Source: Spirochaetales bacterium (GTDB lineage: Bacteria > Spirochaetota > Spirochaetia > Treponematales > UBA12059). Taken from it: a stretch of 11,548 bases of DNA. The stretch spans positions 1 through 11,548 of the forward strand of contig JAFGUM010000500.1 of assembly GCA_016938515.1 (NCBI GenBank), given 5' to 3'. Shown here piece by piece: positions 3,285 through 11,507 of this stretch (within the stretch, counting starts at the first letter, position 1; every line of letters begins with the position of its first letter). The translations under genes and the position numbers were made by a program. Below the pieces are notes generated by a model. That model was not told where the DNA came from. It made no database searches and saw only the letters and a list, made by a program, of their open reading frames with translations.

Positions 3285-3313
3285 ATGGTAGTACGAAAGA
3301 AATATTTTTTCAA
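3285..3313 (-). promoter_or_regulatory. Putative promoter of rpiR-kdgK-gnd, apparently leaderless
   Basis: On the minus strand TTGAAA (3313-3308, 5 of 6 to the -35 consensus) is followed after exactly 17 bp by TACCAT (3290-3285, 4 of 6 to the -10 consensus). A start about 7 nt downstream falls on the chosen ATG of the regulator, which fits the absence of a ribosome binding site there. This is a prediction from consensus only. Confidence 0.4.
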
Positions 3314-3334
3314 GAAAGAAATTTTTATTATTTC
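3295..3334. promoter_or_regulatory. Paired A/T-rich GAAA...TTTC motifs, candidate RpiR operators
   Basis: Two 17-bp motifs bounded by GAAA and TTTC lie in the divergent control region: GAAAGAAATATTTTTTC at 3295-3311 and GAAATTTTTATTATTTC at 3318-3334. The second has perfect 5-bp arms, GAAAT and ATTTC. The 9-mer GAAAGAAAT also recurs directly at 3295 and 3314, 19 bp apart. The first motif sits in the spacer of the predicted rpiR promoter and the second just upstream of its -35. A/T-rich GAAA/TTTC palindromes are typical for MurR/RpiR-family operators. The assignment to this regulator is inferred from position. Confidence 0.45.
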
Positions 3335-3384
3335 CTGTCCATCGATTCCTGTCGTTGTTTCGCAGCGTTCGGTGCGATATCGTA

Positions 3385-3411
3385 TTGACCATGCGGCGGT
3401 ACAGGTATCAT
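3385..3411 (+). promoter_or_regulatory. Weak candidate promoter for the secreted protein gene
   Basis: TTGACC (3385-3390, 5 of 6 to -35) and TATCAT (3406-3411, 5 of 6 to -10) have only a 15-bp spacer, which is short for a sigma-70-type promoter. It lies 27 bp upstream of the plus-strand start codon. An alternative pair, TTGTTT/TATCGT at 3355-3383, has a 17-bp spacer but poorer boxes. Confidence 0.25.
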
Positions 3412-3437
3412 CCGGTACGGCTTTGGCAGGAGGCTTC

Positions 3438-3968
3438 ATGAAAACAGGCATACCGCTCGTCATCGCGTTGTGTGGTTTCCTGCTCATCGTTCCACCAGGG
3501 TCAGAAGCCCAGGAGACGCGCCATGTATACGAGGTGCGAGCCGCCGGGGAACCCTCGGCGCTGGCGTACACAGCGGGAATGCGCGTAGCCGCGGAAGCCG
3601 CCCGCCTGTTTGTGCCGGTGCGTTTCAGCAAAAAAGGAGACAGGGTCGAGTTCCAGTTGACCGGAGCAATCGAGTTTTCGGGCTTGGCATCGGTGGAAGT
3701 AGCCAGGTGGGAAGGATCGGTGGTGCTTCGCCATGAGTTCCTGGTGGGTTCACCACAACGACTCCCCAAAGCCGACAAGCGCTTTACGGTGCGCTTCAGC
3801 CTTGCCGAGCTCAAAGAACACGGCGGCTCCTACGCCGCTTCGCCACTGTTGTACGCTGTCTTCAAGGCCATCAGGGCAAGCCCGTACGCCCGGGGAAGCG
3901 CCTGGATACTCAGCGAACGCTTTACTGGTACAGGCTTCGTTGTCATCGTCGGCTTGAGCGCAAGCTGA
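3438..3968 (+). CDS. Secreted protein of unknown function
   Basis: A 176-residue protein with a clear N-terminal signal peptide: MKTG, a hydrophobic core to about residue 18, and a likely signal peptidase I site after SEA (22-24). The mature part is about 150 residues, basic and beta-rich in appearance, with no Cys and no further membrane helix. I do not recognise a family. The start is decided by the strong AGGAGG at 3429-3434 just upstream of the ATG. The same frame is open back to 3285, but that extension runs through the A/T-rich control region and would bury the signal peptide. The gene is divergent from rpiR and 116 bp upstream of the OsmC gene. Its position suggests a periplasmic or surface role, possibly co-controlled with the RpiR operon, but no function can be assigned. 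Confidence 0.75.
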   Translation: MKTGIPLVIALCGFLLIVPPGSEAQETRHVYEVRAAGEPSALAYTAGMRVAAEAARLFVPVRFSKKGDRVEFQLTGAIEFSGLASVEVARWEGSVVLRHEFLVGSPQRLPKADKRFTVRFSLAELKEHGGSYAASPLLYAVFKAIRASPYARGSAWILSERFTGTGFVVIVGLSAS

Positions 3969-4084: not shown

Positions 4085-4498
4085 ATGTACGAGGTTTCCT
4101 GCGGCTGGCAAGGAGATATGGCTTTCAAGGCAGAGGTGGGTGGCCACGAGATTATGCTGGATGCCGACGAGGCGGTTGGTGGTCACGACCAGGGACCAAC
4201 ACCAAAACCCCTCACACTGGTCTCGCTGGCGGGTTGTACGGGTATGGACGTTATTTCCATACTCAGGAAGATGCGTGAGCCCGTATCGTGGTTCAACGTG
4301 CGGGTGCAGAGCGATCTTACGGGTGAACACCCCAAGACGTATACAAATATCAAGATTATTTACGAGTTCAAAGCCGCTGATGGGCTCAAGGATGAAAACG
4401 TCAGAAAGGCCATACTGCTATCGCAGGATAGGTACTGCGGTGTAAGCGCGATGATTAAAAAGGCTACACCCATCGATTTTGAAGTAGTGTACTTGTAA
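4085..4498 (+). CDS. OsmC/Ohr-superfamily protein, YhfA type
   Basis: A 137-residue cytoplasmic protein of the OsmC superfamily, whose characterised members are thiol peroxidases that reduce organic hydroperoxides. The two conserved cysteines are Cys51, in LAGCTGMDVISIL, and Cys118, in DRYCGVSAM. The second motif and the length (E. coli YhfA is about 134) place it in the YhfA-like branch, whose physiological substrate is not well defined, rather than among classical OsmC or Ohr proteins. The start is set by GGAGG about 6 nt upstream of the ATG. It follows the secreted protein gene by 116 bp with its own predicted promoter and converges on the sugar-uptake operon across a terminator hairpin. 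No functional tie to the neighbours is evident. Confidence 0.88.
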   Translation: MYEVSCGWQGDMAFKAEVGGHEIMLDADEAVGGHDQGPTPKPLTLVSLAGCTGMDVISILRKMREPVSWFNVRVQSDLTGEHPKTYTNIKIIYEFKAADGLKDENVRKAILLSQDRYCGVSAMIKKATPIDFEVVYL

Positions 4499-4548: not shown

Positions 4549-6237
4549 CTAGACGGCTCCCAGCCTGGTCTCGTCGTACGGTACTCCGCTGAGCGTTTCG
4601 CAGACACTTCGCGTTTGCTCGTCTACCGCGGATCTGTCTCCACCAGCGCGGAGGCGTTCCAGCTCGGAGAGCAGAACACGGTGGTTGGCTGGATCAAGGC
4701 GCAGTCGTGTGGATACGGCGACGCCCAGGGCCAGCAATAGTATCGGCAACAGCGCGAACAGCGCGCGTATTTTTCCCGCGGTGCCTGTGGGCTGTGCTAC
4801 AGCGACGGTAGCGCGCGTCGCGCCAGAGCCCTTGTAACCAGCGGCGTCGAGAGCGCGGCGCACAGCGCGGGCGTCTTCGTCGTCTAGTGCCGAATCAAGC
4901 GCGAGCAGCCCATCTCCACCGTCGACGTAGGCGCGCTCGAGCGCGGCGCGGTCTGCGGGCGTTGCGCTCGACGCGCGGGGGACGATGACGGTGGCCAGCT
5001 CTACTGGTTCCAGCCGGGCTGGTACGGGTCCCAGATACCCGATGGCGGCCAGAACAGCCCCGAGGAGCGGCAGTACGAGCGCGCCCTGGATGAGCTTGCG
5101 GATAAGTGTCATAGCGCCGGTATAGGTTCCCGCCCGTTTCTGTCCGGTCAGCAACTCGTCAACATCGACGACAAAAGGCAACAACTGGAAGGGCACGAGG
5201 ACAGCGGCTGATTGCCCAATGCCAGCGAGCACGCAGTTGAGCACCAACAGCACGGTCGGCGTCGTCGGTGTATGAAAGTACATGGCGGCCATGGCCACGA
5301 GCATGATGGACAGTCCGACGCGGTACGCGAAGGCGTGGCCTTTCTTGTTGGCAATCGCTATGTACACCGGCAAAGCCGCGATCTGCGGGATGAGGATAGC
5401 GGCCATCGCTACCATCAGGAAGCCTGGCTTGCCCAGATAATCCGCCAGGTAGAACTTGAGCCAACCCATGAGCACGTCCATCGTCGCGTACGCGAAGATG
5501 TACATGGCTATGTGGATGCGGAAGCTGCGGTTCCTGAAGATGGAAGCAAAGTTTCGTACGAATCCATCACGGGCTGTAGACGTGGAGGAGCTCTTGTCCG
5601 CCTCGGACTCCCAGGTGCCCAGATATACTACTATCCATGGCGCGGCGAACAACGCTCCGAATACAAGCCCCATTACGAGGTGACCCGTGCGCGGATCGTC
5701 AAACGCGTTGATGATGAGCTGGGGCATCGTGCCGGCCACGAGGGCAGCGAGCATTGAGAAAAACATGCGAAAACCCGTCAGCTTGTTGCGGTCCTTGAAG
5801 CTGAAGGCCATCTCGGCTGATAGCGCCCCGTAGGGTACGAGCACCATCGTCGTTACGGTGTAGAAAAAAATGTACGCAAAAAAATAGTACGTGAACAGCC
5901 CGAAGTCGGTGGACGCCCGTACCGGCACCCAGATGAGCACCATCGACAGGAATATGGGCACGATGCCGACGAGGAACCAGACGCGCCGTCTGCCAAAGCG
6001 ACTTTTCGTTCTGTCAGAAATATAGCCCATCAACGGGTCTGACACCGCATCCCAAATCTTGCCCAAGCCGGGTATGAGACCCGCGAGGAGGGGGCTCATG
6101 CCAACGATGGCTACGAGGTAGTACATCGTAAAGGTGCTTACGAGCAGAAAAGCCCCTCCGCCGTACAGGTCACCCAGTCCGTAGGCAATGCAGTTGCCGG
6201 TCTTGATCTCTCGTGCTGTGTTGGTGTGTTCCGTCAT
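4549..6237 (-). CDS. GPH-family sugar:cation symporter (MelB/YihO-like MFS)
   Basis: Inner-membrane transporter of 562 residues in the glycoside-pentoside-hexuronide family, with about 12 predicted helices. The diagnostic segment IWDAVSDPLMGYISD (61-75) carries Asp63 and Asp67, equivalent to MelB Asp55 and Asp59 that bind the coupling cation, followed by the basic loop RTKSRFGRRR. DVDELLTGQKRAGTYTG (358-374) is the family's usual second-half motif. E. coli YihO and YihP, of the sulfoquinovose locus, belong to this family, so with a sulfoquinovosidase directly upstream it is a candidate SQ or SQ-glycoside carrier. The exact substrate and direction are inferred. It is longer than the usual 440-500 residues because of an insertion at about 402-488, between the last two helices. 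The start at 6237 has GAGG upstream and leaves a 10-bp gap to the GH31 stop. An in-frame ATG at 6267 behind AGGTG would add 10 residues and overlap GH31 by 20 bp. Confidence 0.88.
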   Translation of the reverse strand: MTEHTNTAREIKTGNCIAYGLGDLYGGGAFLLVSTFTMYYLVAIVGMSPLLAGLIPGLGKIWDAVSDPLMGYISDRTKSRFGRRRVWFLVGIVPIFLSMVLIWVPVRASTDFGLFTYYFFAYIFFYTVTTMVLVPYGALSAEMAFSFKDRNKLTGFRMFFSMLAALVAGTMPQLIINAFDDPRTGHLVMGLVFGALFAAPWIVVYLGTWESEADKSSSTSTARDGFVRNFASIFRNRSFRIHIAMYIFAYATMDVLMGWLKFYLADYLGKPGFLMVAMAAILIPQIAALPVYIAIANKKGHAFAYRVGLSIMLVAMAAMYFHTPTTPTVLLVLNCVLAGIGQSAAVLVPFQLLPFVVDVDELLTGQKRAGTYTGAMTLIRKLIQGALVLPLLGAVLAAIGYLGPVPARLEPVELATVIVPRASSATPADRAALERAYVDGGDGLLALDSALDDEDARAVRRALDAAGYKGSGATRATVAVAQPTGTAGKIRALFALLPILLLALGVAVSTRLRLDPANHRVLLSELERLRAGGDRSAVDEQTRSVCETLSGVPYDETRLGAV

Positions 6238-6247
6238 TTTTTCCTCA

Positions 6248-7564
6248 CTACGTATTGATTGTGTCACCTAGAATCGAAAACAGATCGCTCCACGCGGTTG
6301 CGGCCCTCCAGAACACCGGCGGCTTGCCGAGCGGGGCGTCTACAACGACGTCCCCCGCGGCGTAGCGTCTGGCCGTCCACAGGTGTACCCATTCGTCCAC
6401 CGGCTCACCGGCAGGCAGGTGTACCGCGCGGCTGACGGCCCCTTCCTCGATCACGGGAGCCACGAGCAGATCACGCCCGAACAGGTACTGATCTTTAATG
6501 CTGAACGACGCCGCTTCATTCTCATAATGGAAGAATAGCGGACGCATCGCGGCGACGCCATCGCGGGTGTTTTCCGCGAGTACGGCCTGTCGGTACGGCT
6601 TTAGCGCGACGAACAGCCTGCCCAGCCGAGCCAGCGCGTCCAGCGTGTCATCGTCGGTATCGAACTGCCAGTTGTCCGCCGGACGATTGCCTTCGTGCGT
6701 CCGCATCATCGGTGTGAACGCGGCGAACTCTGCCCATCGGAGCAGCAGCTCCTTCGTACGCCTCATACCAAACAAGGTTGTGTAACCGCCTATGTCGCTG
6801 TGGTGTACGCCGTGTCCGCAGACGGACAGGGACAGAGCCGCGGTAATTACCGAGGGCAGGCCATCGTCTTCCGACCAGTCTACATTCTGGTCGCCAGCCC
6901 ACATGGTGGGGCACCAGCGCTGGCTGCCCGCCGCTCCAGCGCGCATAAAATAGACTATATCGTCGGCCTTGCCCGCTTCGGCTACCGCCTCGTAGCAGAG
7001 CCGCGCCCACATCGCCGGCCACGGATTGTGCGCCAGCATCGCCGGAGTGCCGTCGTGCAGTACGGCATCGGTGGGCAGGTATTCGCCAAAATCGGCCATC
7101 CAGCCGGACAGGCCGAAGTCTAGCAGGTTGCGCCTGATGACGCCCTTGTACCACTCGAAAGCCTCGGGATTGGTAAAGTCGACTATGCCAGCGTCAAACT
7201 CGCCAAAGTCGAGCCTATAGTCGTTGCCATTGGCATCTCTGGCCAAAAATCCCCTGGCCGACGCTTCGTTCCACAGCGGCTTGTCAGCGGCGACGTAGGG
7301 GTTGGCGTACCCGAGAAATCGCACTCCCAGAGAACGCCAGCGATCTATCGCGGCCGGCAGACCGGGGTAACGATCCGGGTCCCACTCCCAGTTCCAGCGG
7401 AGTCGCTGGCCAAAACTGGTTATGTTTATGCCTTCCCAGTCCTGGGCCCTGACGCCGGCCACCGGCACTCCGCGGGCTGTAGCCCTTCGCAGCCGAGCCT
7501 CGCAGACGTCGGTACCGCCCTGCATGCCCAGGATAACGCCATCGTGCACCCACGCGGGCAACAC
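6248..7564 (-). CDS. yihQ: GH31 sulfoquinovosidase, catalytic part (C-terminal piece of split yihQ)
   Basis: Catalytic (beta/alpha)8 barrel plus C-terminal domains of a family 31 glycosidase that cleaves alpha-sulfoquinovosides (the headgroup of plant sulfolipid) to sulfoquinovose. Residues counted from the GTG at 7564: Gln15 (MQGGTDVC), Gln41 (AQDW), Arg54 and Trp57 (GQRLRWNW) and Tyr261 (DIGGYTT) match E. coli YihQ Q262, Q288, R301, W304 and Y508. Asp158 (MADFGE) and Asp225 (WAGDQN) match nucleophile D405 and acid/base D472. All seven share the same offset of 247. The 438-residue frame is the direct in-phase continuation of the upstream frame after TAA and CCC. Translated alone it would start at GTG behind a weak AGG, by reinitiation. 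It could be a working separate subunit, a decayed gene, or a base error. Upstream of the GPH transporter by 10 bp. Confidence 0.85.
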   Translation of the reverse strand: MLPAWVHDGVILGMQGGTDVCEARLRRATARGVPVAGVRAQDWEGINITSFGQRLRWNWEWDPDRYPGLPAAIDRWRSLGVRFLGYANPYVAADKPLWNEASARGFLARDANGNDYRLDFGEFDAGIVDFTNPEAFEWYKGVIRRNLLDFGLSGWMADFGEYLPTDAVLHDGTPAMLAHNPWPAMWARLCYEAVAEAGKADDIVYFMRAGAAGSQRWCPTMWAGDQNVDWSEDDGLPSVITAALSLSVCGHGVHHSDIGGYTTLFGMRRTKELLLRWAEFAAFTPMMRTHEGNRPADNWQFDTDDDTLDALARLGRLFVALKPYRQAVLAENTRDGVAAMRPLFFHYENEAASFSIKDQYLFGRDLLVAPVIEEGAVSRAVHLPAGEPVDEWVHLWTARRYAAGDVVVDAPLGKPPVFWRAATAWSDLFSILGDTINT

Positions 7565-7570
7565 GGGTTA
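7565..7570 (-). other. In-frame TAA interrupting the sulfoquinovosidase gene
   Basis: On the minus strand the reading is GGC AGG TAA CCC GTG TTG CCC: Gly-Arg-stop-Pro-Val-Leu-Pro. Frames on both sides are in the same phase (2082 bp from ATG to final stop is divisible by 3), so this is a nonsense codon, not a frameshift. As I recall, relatives usually have Gln after Gly-Arg at this place (FGRQP), so a single C-to-T change, CAA to TAA, would explain it. It falls exactly between the N-terminal sandwich and the barrel. Confidence 0.9.
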
Positions 7571-8329
7571 CCTGCCAAAATAATCTGAAACATCCGTAGC
7601 AAGTTCGAGCATCGTCGCCGCCGAGCCGACCGTGAGCGACTCCGGCAGAGCCCAGAACTCCAGCTCATGGAAGCCATCCTGGGTAAAGTCAAAAACCGCG
7701 TACGCTGGGCAGTCCGCGTGCAGCCAGTAGTGTCTGCTTGACGCGAAGGTGGGCTGCGGAAAGAAGGTCCACCAGTAGTCGCCACCAGCTTTGTCGGCGA
7801 CGTCGGCTTCCCAGGTAACGCGGGTGTTTTTGTTGCGCCCCACTCCCTGCTCGCTCGTCCACAGCGGGAATCGCCTGCCGCGCAGGTTGAAGTGCGAGAA
7901 CTGTTCGCCGCCACCGAATACCGATTCGCCGGGCTCGGCGGACAGTCGGAACCAGAAACGGTTTGGTACGGCAGGAGCGCTACCCGCCGGCCGGGGTCCT
8001 TCGGGCCCGCCCGCTATCAGGGGCGAGACGATGAGCGAGGGCTTTATAACGAGGCGGCCAGAGTCTTCCGACAGAGCCAGCGTCATCGACATTCCCTGAG
8101 CACTCGTCAGCGTTACGCGATACGCCTCGCCATCATCGCCGATGGAAAAATCACCAAGACCGATACGCTCTTCCAGGCGATCCTGAATGTCGAAGTTGCC
8201 GCGATACGCTACTACTGCCTCGACACCCCGCCCGACATACGCACACGGCGCGGCCCTCGTATGCTTTATAACGCAAAGGCCATTGTGTGTTACCGAGAAA
8301 CCGTGCTCGTCGTATTCGAGCAAAATCAT
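7568..8329 (-). CDS. yihQ: GH31 sulfoquinovosidase, N-terminal sandwich part (of split yihQ)
   Basis: The 253-residue N-terminal piece of the sulfoquinovosidase: the beta-sandwich domain that precedes the barrel in GH31 enzymes. It holds the YihQ-type block FGGGEQFSHFNLRGRRFPLW (138-157), then TSEQGVGR (158-165), AGGDYWWTFFPQPTFASSR (181-199) and HELEFWALPE (221-230). GEQFSHFNLRGR with TSEQGVGR is characteristic of the sulfoquinovosidase branch rather than of general alpha-glucosidases. It ends at TAA after Tyr-Phe-Gly-Arg, where the intact family continues into the barrel. On its own it lacks every catalytic residue. The ATG at 8329 has AGGAGGG 7-8 nt upstream, so translation entry is strong. 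Together the two pieces would make a 693-codon protein against about 678 residues for E. coli YihQ. Confidence 0.85.
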   Translation of the reverse strand: MILLEYDEHGFSVTHNGLCVIKHTRAAPCAYVGRGVEAVVAYRGNFDIQDRLEERIGLGDFSIGDDGEAYRVTLTSAQGMSMTLALSEDSGRLVIKPSLIVSPLIAGGPEGPRPAGSAPAVPNRFWFRLSAEPGESVFGGGEQFSHFNLRGRRFPLWTSEQGVGRNKNTRVTWEADVADKAGGDYWWTFFPQPTFASSRHYWLHADCPAYAVFDFTQDGFHELEFWALPESLTVGSAATMLELATDVSDYFGR

Positions 8330-8399: not shown

Positions 8400-9233
8400 T
8401 TAGCCTTTTACGCCACCCGCGGCGACGCCCCGTATGAGGAACCTCTGCATCGCGAGGGTAAACACGAACACCGGCGTGAGCATCACCGTGCTCGCCGCGC
8501 ACATCTGCCCCCAGGTAAGCGTATCGCCGCCTATGAGGCTGGAAATGGCTACCGGAGCGGTTCGCGCCTTTACGCCCGTCAGGATGAGCGCGTACAGGAA
8601 CTCGTTCCAGCTGTTTATAAATGCGAATACAGCCGCCACGACGAGCCCGGGAGCTACCAGCGGCAGGAACACGAGCCGGAACAGGGTCCAGCGCGTGCAG
8701 CCATCCACCATCGCGGCTTCCTCGTAGCTTTTATCCACCGCCGTAAAGAACGGAATCAGCATCCATATAACGTACGGCACGTTGAAGCTCGAGTGCGCCA
8801 GCGTGATGCCGGCAATAGTATCGCGCAAGCCTATGCTCCGGAACATCAGGTACAGGGCGACCACGAGAGACATCTGCGGCAGCATGCGGAATACGAGGAA
8901 GCTGTACGCGAGGGCGTTGCGCCCCCGAAACTTGAACCGTGATATGCCGTATGCCGCCATGGCACCCACGCCAACCGAGAGAGCGGTAGACAGGAGGCCG
9001 ACCAGTATCGAGTTTCCCATCGCCTTCATCATCTGCTTGTTCTTGAACACCAGCATGTAGCTGTCGAGGGTAAACTGGTTGGCGGAGAATTTCTGCCCGG
9101 AGAGTATTACAATATCCCGGCGGAACCCGTTGAGGAGCGTGATGATGATGGGGTACAGCTCGACTAGAAGCAGAGCCAGTGCAAAAAACATCACGGCGGC
9201 CGATATGGTCTTGCGCCTGTTGGCCAGCGTCAT
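8400..9233 (-). CDS. ABC sugar transporter permease, MalG type
   Basis: Inner-membrane permease of 277 residues with about six helices, second subunit of a carbohydrate uptake (CUT1) ABC importer. The cytoplasmic EAA loop that docks to the ATPase is EEAAMVDGCTRWTLFRLVFL (171-190), with the conserved Gly, and is followed by the typical INSWNEFLYALIL segment (206-218). The start ATG overlaps the stop of the upstream permease by 4 bp (ATGA), showing translational coupling. No ATPase gene is present in the cluster, so a shared MsmX/MalK-type ATPase encoded elsewhere is likely. The gene ends just before the terminator that precedes the sulfoquinovosidase. The substrate is inferred from context to be a sulfoquinovose glycoside, as for the Agrobacterium Smo ABC system. 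Confidence 0.93.
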   Translation of the reverse strand: MTLANRRKTISAAVMFFALALLLVELYPIIITLLNGFRRDIVILSGQKFSANQFTLDSYMLVFKNKQMMKAMGNSILVGLLSTALSVGVGAMAAYGISRFKFRGRNALAYSFLVFRMLPQMSLVVALYLMFRSIGLRDTIAGITLAHSSFNVPYVIWMLIPFFTAVDKSYEEAAMVDGCTRWTLFRLVFLPLVAPGLVVAAVFAFINSWNEFLYALILTGVKARTAPVAISSLIGGDTLTWGQMCAASTVMLTPVFVFTLAMQRFLIRGVAAGGVKG

Positions 9234-10177
9234 CGGTTACCGCCCTGGTCTTCAAGCTTCTCAAGACTCATGTTCTTGCGAACGAGGGTAACCGCGAACG
9301 CCACTGAGATAAGCAGCAGGAATATGGCCATGGCGCTCGACATACCCACTTTCATGTAGCCAAAGGCTTGCCGGTGCGTGTACAGGCTGAACAACGTCGT
9401 TGCCATGCCCGGGCCTCCCTCAGTCATCACGTACACTTCGCTGAAGATACGCAGAGCGTCTATGATGCGCAGAAGCAGCGCGGTAAGGATGGTGGGGTAC
9501 AACAGTGGCAGTATGACGCGGAACAGGCGCTTCCAGAAGCCCGCACCGTCTATTTCTGCGGCTTCCAGCACGTCTGTCGGGATTCCGGCAAGGCCTGCGT
9601 ACAGGAGCATGAACACGAACGGCCACATGCGCCAGATGTCCTGGATTATAACAGCAACGTACGCGAACACGGGGTCACCCAGCCACGTAATCTCGGGAGC
9701 GCCGAGCATCAAAAGAAAGTTGTTGAGCGCTCCGTAGCGCGGCTGCAGCATGAAGCGCCAGGTCATGCCGGATACTATGGGCAAGAAGAACACCGGCAGC
9801 AGAATGAGCGCGCGTATGACTCGCCCACCCTGAAACTCGCGGTTCAGAAGCAAGGCGGCGCCAAGCCCCAGCAACAGCTCGAGGGGTATCGCTATAAAGA
9901 TGAAACCAAGCTGCAGCTTGAGGCTGTTCCAGAATTCTGCATCCTGCACCAGCGCGACATAGTTGCCTCCTCCTATAAAGCGCCGCTCTCCACCGCCGGC
10001 TGACAGCGGCCAGTCAAAGAGGGATACCACAAAGGAGAACACTATGGGAAAGATGAGTACCGCAAATACAATCAGGAGCGCCGGTATCAAAAAAGGAACG
10101 GGGGACCCCTGGCCCCCCGCCCTTTTCAAGGCGACTCTCCCGGTCTGGCTAGTAGCCGGCCTTCTTGAGAATGTCAT
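9230..10177 (-). CDS. ABC sugar transporter permease, MalF type
   Basis: Inner-membrane permease of 315 residues, partner of the MalG-type subunit. Helices begin at about residue 28 (FLIPALLIVFAVLIFPIVFS). The EAA loop is LEAAEIDGAGFWKRLFRVIL (204-223), and the conserved periplasmic-side motif VYVMTEGGPG (248-257) is typical of CUT1 MalF-like proteins. Two starts are possible. The ATG at 10177 has AAGGA upstream and overlaps the binding-protein gene by 29 bp. A TTG at 10129 behind GGGAGAG would start 20 bp after the binding-protein stop and drop 16 residues. I kept the ATG. A G/C hairpin sits in the first codons (10100-10117). Confidence 0.92.
   Translation of the reverse strand: MTFSRRPATSQTGRVALKRAGGQGSPVPFLIPALLIVFAVLIFPIVFSFVVSLFDWPLSAGGGERRFIGGGNYVALVQDAEFWNSLKLQLGFIFIAIPLELLLGLGAALLLNREFQGGRVIRALILLPVFFLPIVSGMTWRFMLQPRYGALNNFLLMLGAPEITWLGDPVFAYVAVIIQDIWRMWPFVFMLLYAGLAGIPTDVLEAAEIDGAGFWKRLFRVILPLLYPTILTALLLRIIDALRIFSEVYVMTEGGPGMATTLFSLYTHRQAFGYMKVGMSSAMAIFLLLISVAFAVTLVRKNMSLEKLEDQGGNR
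10100..10117 (-). repeat. Small G/C hairpin at the binding-protein/permease junction
   Basis: On the minus strand a run of five G pairs with a run of five C around an 8-nt loop. It lies just inside the MalF-type permease gene, 32 bp past the binding-protein stop. It has no T-run. Hairpins at this position in sugar ABC operons often protect the upstream binding-protein message or lower permease translation; here that role is only a possibility. Confidence 0.3.
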
Positions 10178-11477
10178 TGGTTTCCTTGACTATGGCCTTG
10201 ATCGCTTCTCGCGTATCCATGGCGCCGGTAATTCCCATGACCCAGTACTTTTTAACTACGTCCTGAACCTGGCCAATCTCCTTGAAGCGTGGCCTGGAGG
10301 CCGCTACTTCCATTGAAGCGGCGAGCGCGGGCAGGTGCGGCTTGCTGGCGGTAAACGCGGGGTTGGTAAGCGACTCGGTGCGGGCTGGTATGGTGTTGAG
10401 CTGGACGAGCCTGTCTGCGACGGACTTGCTTGACCACCAGTAGACAAATTCAGCGGCCGCTTCCTGGTTCTTGGAAGCCTTCGGGATGGCTATTGCCCAT
10501 GCGCCGGTAACTGCTGCCTGGCCGCGGGGGCCGGCGGGCGGTGCCGAGTAGGCGATCTTGCCGGCTACGAGCGACTTGGCGGGATCTTCGTACGCGGCGA
10601 TCTGGGCTGGCCAGATGAACATCGAGAACACGCCCTTGGGATCGGCGGCGAAAGCTGCCTGGCGCTCGACGTGAGCCATGGTCTCGGCGCCCTTGGGCGA
10701 AATGGCCATCAGCTTCTTGTAGAACTCGATGCCCTCTACAGCCTTGTCCTCGTCAAGGACTACTTTGAAGGTGCCGTTTACATAATCGATGAACTTGGTG
10801 CCGTAGGATTCCCACATATACACCGCTTCTGACAGAACACCGGCGGGACCGCCGTTGAAGGGGCCAAAACCGGCGGCGATGTCGTTCTCATAGAAGAACG
10901 TACCCATCTCCAAGAGTTCCTTGAAGGTCTTCGGAACGCCGAGGTCGTAGCCGTACTTGGCTTTGAACTGCGCCTTGTACTCAGGGTTTTCGATGAGGTC
11001 CTTGCGGGTCATCCAGACGTACAGGTTGCCGTTGATCGGCACGCCGAGCTGCACGCCGTTCCAGGTGCCGATGCTGTACATCTTGGGGGTGACGGAATCG
11101 GGGTCGGTCTTGGGGTAGACGGTGCCCTTGCTCCACTGGTCAAACGGCAACAGCAACGACGCAAAAACGGGTACGTTGCCTTCGTCGATGCCAACGACGT
11201 CGTAGTCTGTGCTGGTTTCGGTAACCGAGACGGCCGTCTTGGTAAGCACCTGCGGCGGCTGGAGCATTTCGATATTCACCGTGATGTTCGTTGCCGCGGT
11301 AAACTCGGGCAGCATGTCGATAAGCGCCTTGGGATACGGGTCGTCCCACAGCAGCACATTGATGGTCCGCGCCGGAATGGCGGCAGGCGCGTCACCGTCC
11401 TTGCCTCCCATGGCGAATGCCGTGATGGCGGTAAGCGCCATCAGTACGATGACGAGCAGCGTGATCTTTGACTTCAT
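10149..11477 (-). CDS. ABC sugar transporter periplasmic solute-binding protein, MalE type
   Basis: Extracytoplasmic binding protein of 442 residues that captures the sugar and delivers it to the MalF/MalG permease pair. The N-terminus MKSK, a hydrophobic core and TAFA before MGGKDG fit a signal peptide cut after about residue 22. There is no lipobox Cys, so it would be soluble in the periplasm. The mature start INVLLWDDPYP, the internal VPINGNLYVWMTRKDLIEN segment and TGAWAIAIPKASKNQEAAAEFVYWW in the second half are typical of the CUT1 binding-protein fold (SBP_bac_1). The start at 11477 is set by AAGGAAGGA 5 nt upstream. The ATG 24 nt further upstream (11501) would place this site inside the gene. 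First gene of the cluster. The ligand is inferred from the linked sulfoquinovosidase; sulfonate-binding residues cannot be judged by eye. Confidence 0.92.
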   Translation of the reverse strand: MKSKITLLVIVLMALTAITAFAMGGKDGDAPAAIPARTINVLLWDDPYPKALIDMLPEFTAATNITVNIEMLQPPQVLTKTAVSVTETSTDYDVVGIDEGNVPVFASLLLPFDQWSKGTVYPKTDPDSVTPKMYSIGTWNGVQLGVPINGNLYVWMTRKDLIENPEYKAQFKAKYGYDLGVPKTFKELLEMGTFFYENDIAAGFGPFNGGPAGVLSEAVYMWESYGTKFIDYVNGTFKVVLDEDKAVEGIEFYKKLMAISPKGAETMAHVERQAAFAADPKGVFSMFIWPAQIAAYEDPAKSLVAGKIAYSAPPAGPRGQAAVTGAWAIAIPKASKNQEAAAEFVYWWSSKSVADRLVQLNTIPARTESLTNPAFTASKPHLPALAASMEVAASRPRFKEIGQVQDVVKKYWVMGITGAMDTREAIKAIVKETNDILKKAGY

Positions 11478-11507
11478 CGTGTCCTTCCTTCCCAACATCA
11501 ACTGATT

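Follow-up and report, generated by a model that had tools for sequence, protein, structure and literature searches.

Sulfoquinovose ranks among the most abundant organic sulfur compounds, and sulfoquinovosidases free this plant sulfur sugar from its lipid backbone. In Escherichia coli YihQ, we take Arg301 to be the sulfonate-binding residue, Asp405 the nucleophile and Asp472 the acid/base, and the residues Gln262, Gln288, Arg301, Trp304 and Tyr508 presumably form the sulfonate and sugar-pocket set, a set also named in an earlier note on the DNA analyzed here. Regarding the fate of the released sugar, a review (PMC12890257) places in Spirochaetes both the sulfo-transketolase (sulfo-TK) pathway and a variant of it that uses SqwD and SqwKL, which the review credits to Chu et al. 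(2023). Similarly, two other papers describe YihQ along with a transcribed sulfo-TK pathway in rumen Sphaerochaetaceae (PMC13219744) and name Spirochaetota with sulfo-SMO clusters (PMC13372026). According to a further paper, DUF4867 corresponds to SqvB and SqvD is an isomerase (PMC9594981).

The window, i.e., the whole stretch of DNA analyzed (11,548 nucleotides), is a complete contig (C127) from a fragmented genome of 2.55 Mb in 605 contigs, 79% complete. On its minus strand, from 11501 to 4549, genes for a solute-binding protein, two ABC permeases, a GH31 enzyme and a GPH-type symporter follow each other (Table 1). The 5' part of the GH31 gene is preceded by a Shine-Dalgarno-like GAGGAGG, and the symporter scores 173 bits on TIGR00792, below the cut-off of 231. 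The closest named relatives of the GH31 gene are spirochaete MAGs, the first being Spirochaetae bacterium HGW-Spirochaetae-7 (74%), in agreement with the spirochaete origin that the earlier note had supposed. We consider it very probable that this locus represents the uptake and first-cleavage part of a sulfoquinovose pathway in an uncultured spirochaete, with a GH31 gene cut by a recent nonsense mutation or a consensus error.

Table 1. Features of the window (residues in the numbering of the protein read through the stop).
Feature	Position	Strand	Basis
ABC solute-binding protein SBP_bac_1, candidate sulfoquinovosyl-glycerol or sulfoquinovose binder	10149..11501	-	Pfam + relatives
ABC importer permease, UgpA/MalF-like	9230..10177	-	BPD_transp_1; identity 89-91% in three relatives
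ABC importer permease, MalG-like	8400..9233	-	BPD_transp_1; identity 88-94% in three relatives
GH31 5' part, N-terminal mutarotase-like sandwich, 253 aa, ends at in-frame TAA	7568..8329	-	ORF
In-frame TAA, codon 254, opposite YihQ residue 246	7568..7570	-	ORFs + alignment
GH31 3' part, barrel + C-terminal domain, same frame as 5' part	6248..7567	-	ORF 6248-7564, 438 aa
Gln270 = YihQ Gln262	7520..7522	-	alignment
Gln296 = YihQ Gln288	7442..7444	-	alignment
Arg309 = YihQ Arg301	7403..7405	-	alignment
Trp312 = YihQ Trp304	7394..7396	-	alignment
Asp413 = YihQ Asp405	7091..7093	-	alignment
Asp480 = YihQ Asp472	6890..6892	-	alignment
Tyr516 = YihQ Tyr508	6782..6784	-	alignment
GPH-type cation symporter, overlaps end of GH31 gene as called	4549..6267	-	MFS_2; TIGR00792
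RpiR, PfkB kinase, 6-phosphogluconate dehydrogenase (last one cut by contig start)	3-3392	-	family matches

The genes at the other end of the contig were rejected as sulfosugar genes: the PfkB kinase is nearest to 2-keto-3-deoxygluconate kinase, the 6-phosphogluconate dehydrogenase scores as an ordinary one, and neither of these nor RpiR was matched in the neighboring stretches of the relatives compared. The plus strand carries an ORF without Pfam or NCBIfam match (3285-3968) and an OsmC-like gene (4085-4498), and homologs of both are located near GH31 in two genomes of the same genus (G001 and G003).

When read through the stop, the GH31 protein reaches 906 bits on the NCBIfam model NF007746 (cut-off 553), whose underlying PRK10426 we take to be YihQ. 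It matches YihQ itself with 809 bits and 50% identity over 690 columns, and the top six PDB sequences (8r56, 5aed, 5aee, 6pnr, 5ohy and 5ohs) with 675-812 bits, the seventh scoring 168 bits. All seven binding and catalytic residues align to those of YihQ at a constant shift of 8, which is the single offset of 247 claimed by the earlier note once its second-ORF numbering is converted. The YihQ-type sandwich block described there was also recovered, GEQFSHFNLRGR/TSEQGVGR aligning to GEQFSYFDLRGK/TSEQGVGR of YihQ. Among the best 120 of 5691 homologs, these positions read QQRW-D-D-Y in 119 and QQRW-D-D-F in one. In a 47-row tree, the window sequence groups with its orthologs from G001, G003, G007 and G011 (100/99) inside a group of 16 QQRWY rows (98/91), spirochaete except one named only 'bacterium'. 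This group adjoins YihQ, Bacillota and rhizobial KERWY rows in a QQRWY + KERWY clade (96/97), and rows of the type of YicI, an alpha-xylosidase, are split off by the longest inner branch (100/100), a placement with YihQ and apart from non-SQ members as had been anticipated. A quick 64-row tree gave the same place for the window sequence; in that tree, a row from a Clostridiales MAG (L080) is placed amid the spirochaete rows. One YihQ-like protein (P0167) bears the name of Chlamydia abortus in its record but is listed among Paenibacillus copies of equal identity to the query (57%), so that this name seems to stem from mislabelling or contamination. Sequence comparison confirms the window gene as that of a predicted sulfoquinovosidase of the YihQ type, in interrupted form.

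The interruption is a single codon: 6248-8329 consists of two same-frame ORFs parted by one TAA, the GH31 frame being otherwise open. This stop stands between the sandwich and the barrel domain, at a residue which is Gln in the four closest relatives, and the first possible restart is a GTG three bases on (7562-7564). As sequenced, the gene lacks an intact reading frame and a full-length enzyme is not made from it. While the family assignment proposed earlier holds by residues, tree and model score, a working enzyme from this copy is not supported because of the in-frame TAA; the word 'joined' in the earlier note suggests that the break had already been noticed. The orthologs of G001, G003 and G007 (same genus) and of G011 (same family), which are 73-75% identical, are open, and the other family-matched ORFs of the window are without internal stop. 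After the stop, dN/dS is 0.08-0.11 between the window and relatives (four pairs) and 0.09-0.14 among intact relatives (six pairs); before the stop, it is 0.15-0.20 and 0.11-0.26, respectively, all these values being rough since dS is 0.8-2.2 in these comparisons. Such ratios suggest that selection acted on the gene until very recently, and the TAA most likely reflects either a nonsense mutation of very recent date or a consensus error of the assembly. An old pseudogene is not supported, as purifying selection on either half resembles that seen among the intact relatives. The matches provide no second copy of the species against which to judge the stop: the N-terminal piece with the window's end occurs in the protein collection from this contig only and no full-length homolog above 77% identity is found among the matches listed. 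A partial homolog (P0164, 81%) is a barrel-side piece of 453 residues which begins ahead of the junction and retains the Gln.

Stops were also encountered in other YihQ-like genes. Two copies from spirochaete MAGs (L152:8862-10946 and L151:1-1935) contain a single in-frame TAG, opposite YihQ 124 and 337, and a third (G074) contains one TGA. A programmed or shared stop is not supported, the stops of the first two sitting at other places than that of the window. These positions also bear on a two-chain sulfoquinovosidase, in which the TAA would end a sandwich subunit and the ribosome would restart at the GTG to produce a barrel subunit, both forming the active enzyme. Such an arrangement would fit a stop located at a domain boundary, an AGG six bases ahead of the GTG and the selection apparent on both parts; however, both triplets also serve as ordinary codons of the protein and the in-frame stops of the two MAG copies are elsewhere. 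Two distant pieces could be similar cases, P0099 ending two residues before the junction and P0010 just past it, but among 240 proteins, the 16 which end within 18 residues of the junction (window's own included) provide no clear second case, and several of them have unrelated tails or lie on short contigs. Natural fission of the gene was rejected on this ground. We judge the two-chain enzyme very improbable and retain a very recent nonsense mutation or consensus error.

The genomic context was analyzed in 22 chosen loci with a QQRWY GH31 (each from a different genome; 21 carry a spirochaete name or bin assignment and one is called only 'bacterium'), many of these stretches being cut by contig ends. 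At least one importer gene lies within 3 kb of the GH31 gene in 20 of them; of the other two, the L121 sequence starts inside the GH31 gene, and L079 carries a GPH gene in place of an importer gene. The window's binding protein matches 11 PDB sequences at 1e-6, none labelled as a sulfoquinovosyl-glycerol binder, and its closest counterparts of solved structure bind maltose and trehalose. In two rhizobial sulfoquinovosidase loci, the permeases are matched by those of the window, but the binding protein finds no counterpart at 1e-8. The GPH gene adjoins the enzyme in the window and in G003 (ortholog 76-77% identical) but not in G001 and G007, and the G011 contig ends there. The earlier proposal that the ABC importer and the GPH symporter carry sulfoquinovosyl glycerol or sulfoquinovose is thus borne out as to the proximity of importer genes; as to the substrate, gene linkage makes the binding protein and the GPH carrier candidates.

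Homologs of SqvD, SqwG, SqwH or SqwI, gene names which are given here from family and gene order, are present in the same stretch as GH31 in 12 of the 22 loci. In G007 (98% complete), one contig carries in a row ROK, SqvD, SqwG, SqwH, SqwI, an acylating aldehyde dehydrogenase, CoA-ligase beta and alpha, a DASS carrier, DUF4867, the binding protein, the two permeases and GH31. Its dehydrogenase scores 512 bits on NF047625 (acylating sulfoacetaldehyde dehydrogenase), below the cut-off of 600, and its SqvD homolog, 63% identical to Sphaerochaeta SqvD, scores 187 bits on NF048012, below the cut-off of 700. The window's own genome likewise contains SqvD, SqwGH and SqwI homologs: one contig (C599) carries those of SqwG, SqwH and SqwI with the same dehydrogenase (480 bits), a SqwD-like gene located at a contig end, and another (C117) begins with the C-terminal 126 residues of SqvD, followed by a second GH31. 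SqwK and DUF4867 (SqvB) were not found in this genome, which is only 79% complete. The three contigs are joined by binning, not by sequence, and have G+C contents of 59.6, 63.5 and 55.7%. Between the SqwH and SqwI homologs, about 550 bases (L145:1774-2333) look repetitive from their translation. A sulfo-EMP pathway was rejected for these spirochaetes, E. coli YihS, YihT and YihV being without match at 1e-15 in the spirochaete locus flanks.

A pathway can be proposed in which the binding protein and the two permeases, with a presumed ATPase, would import sulfoquinovosyl glycerol, from which the YihQ-type GH31 would release sulfoquinovose. SqvD, SqwGH, SqwI and SqwD, encoded on other contigs, would then convert sulfoquinovose to sulfoacetaldehyde and further to the CoA ester of sulfoacetate. 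Alternatively, the gene could encode an ordinary alpha-glucosidase or alpha-xylosidase with an importer for malto- or xylo-oligosaccharides, alpha-glucosidase being both the description of NF007746 and a frequent database name of the homologs, and the binding protein being nearest to maltose and trehalose binders. Against this stand the residues, the tree and the linkage to sulfo-transketolase genes, and the Q, Q, R, W, Y set of YihQ corresponds to S, D, A, W, F in YicI; we therefore consider such an enzyme very improbable. Recoding or suppression, by which the TAA would be read as an amino acid to give a full-length enzyme, agrees with a frame open and conserved on either side but is hardly credible, since TAA terminates the permease, RpiR and OsmC ORFs of the window and is therefore not reassigned, and the few own-genome matches seen are without other in-frame TAA. 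The preferred reading thus remains that of a YihQ-type gene with a recent nonsense mutation or consensus error.

The second GH31 of the genome (L002:379-2385) directly follows the end of sqvD and scores 824 bits on NF007746, but Gln replaces Arg301. Among the best 120 of its 1543 homologs, 103 have QQQW, one QQRW and 16 other residues. A search for SqvD in 297 genomes of the class gave 20 with a match at 1e-60, own genome included, and GH31 was searched in 24 genomes, i.e., these 20 and four genus and family members found before. In 12 of the 24, the start of a GH31 gene and the end of the sqvD match lie on the same strand and no more than 45 bases apart, with Gln at position 301 in 11 and His in one truncated copy (G001). 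The remaining 13 GH31 matches comprise nine QQRW copies and four Gln copies located elsewhere in their genomes. The QQRW and QQQW groups (121 vs 103 proteins) differ at 15 positions including R301, with more than 80% agreement in each, and most R301Q members also show Y337F, V338L, G368 to T or P, N474L and N579Y; Arg is present at position 301 in the five solved relatives compared. In the 47-row tree, the Gln rows do not form a single clade: two of them branch separately close to the root, itself of uncertain position, and G002 and G005, genus mates in which SqvD had no match, carry an ERRWD form inside the group. The specificity positions of these copies (L106 in G002 and L105 in G005) read ERRW-D-D-D, and both genomes do have a SqwK-like gene. 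On a Spirochaetota bin79 contig, a single sulfo-transketolase cluster includes two GH31 genes, one of the QQRWY and one of the QQQWY form (L008:9896-12037 and 19629-21818). G007:C17 (L127, L170) contains a partial QQQW copy running into an N stretch, and the 24,496-residue open frame reported for this contig is probably due to the N run.

These comparisons tentatively suggest, as a possibility somewhat short of probable, that spirochaete sulfo-transketolase organisms have two kinds of YihQ-like GH31: 1) a QQRWY form with an ABC importer and 2) a sqvD-coupled form in which the loss of Arg (R301Q) and the other changes would provide new sulfonate recognition or act on a different sulfosugar glycoside. 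Against a special role, Gln at 301 may simply be the older state. In the window's genome, this divergent GH31 might stand in for the interrupted copy. Nothing on the QQRWY, KERWY and R301 signatures was found in the freely accessible literature covered. If the R301Q group is active, the GH31 sulfoquinovosidase residue signature, as also used here, would be too narrow, and surveys that depend on it would overlook or misname genes of this group.

By its gene set, an uncultured spirochaete genus joins the organisms equipped for anaerobic sulfoquinovose breakdown, and the locus cautions that a full set of residues does not guarantee an uninterrupted gene. Compared with E. coli YihQ (PDB 5aed and 5oht), to which it is 50% identical over the 690 aligned columns with all seven residues retained, the window gene is broken by a TAA, would supply a transketolase route instead of sulfo-EMP, and is adjoined by an ABC importer. 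Rhizobial KERWY-type sulfoquinovosidases encoded on plasmids (L157 and L158) belong to the same GH31 clade and have permeases nearby which are 32-35% identical to those of the window, whereas K and E replace Q and Q at YihQ 262 and 288 and the binding protein finds no match there. As to the variant with SqwD and SqwKL, G007 has SqwD-, SqwK- and SqwL-like genes in one cluster, in contrast to the window's own incomplete genome, where SqwK is missing from the matches. The Sphaerochaeta halotolerans cluster (L059) likewise combines a binding protein, two permeases and a QQRWY GH31, beside SqvD, SqwG, SqwH and SqwI homologs; it differs by Fe-ADH and TauE (isethionate branch), while the window's genome and its genus mate have the acylating dehydrogenase. 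Since spirochaete sulfosugar pathways have already been published, the window does not represent a new kind of system; it adds a member to a GH31 family and a pathway already known, spirochaetes included.
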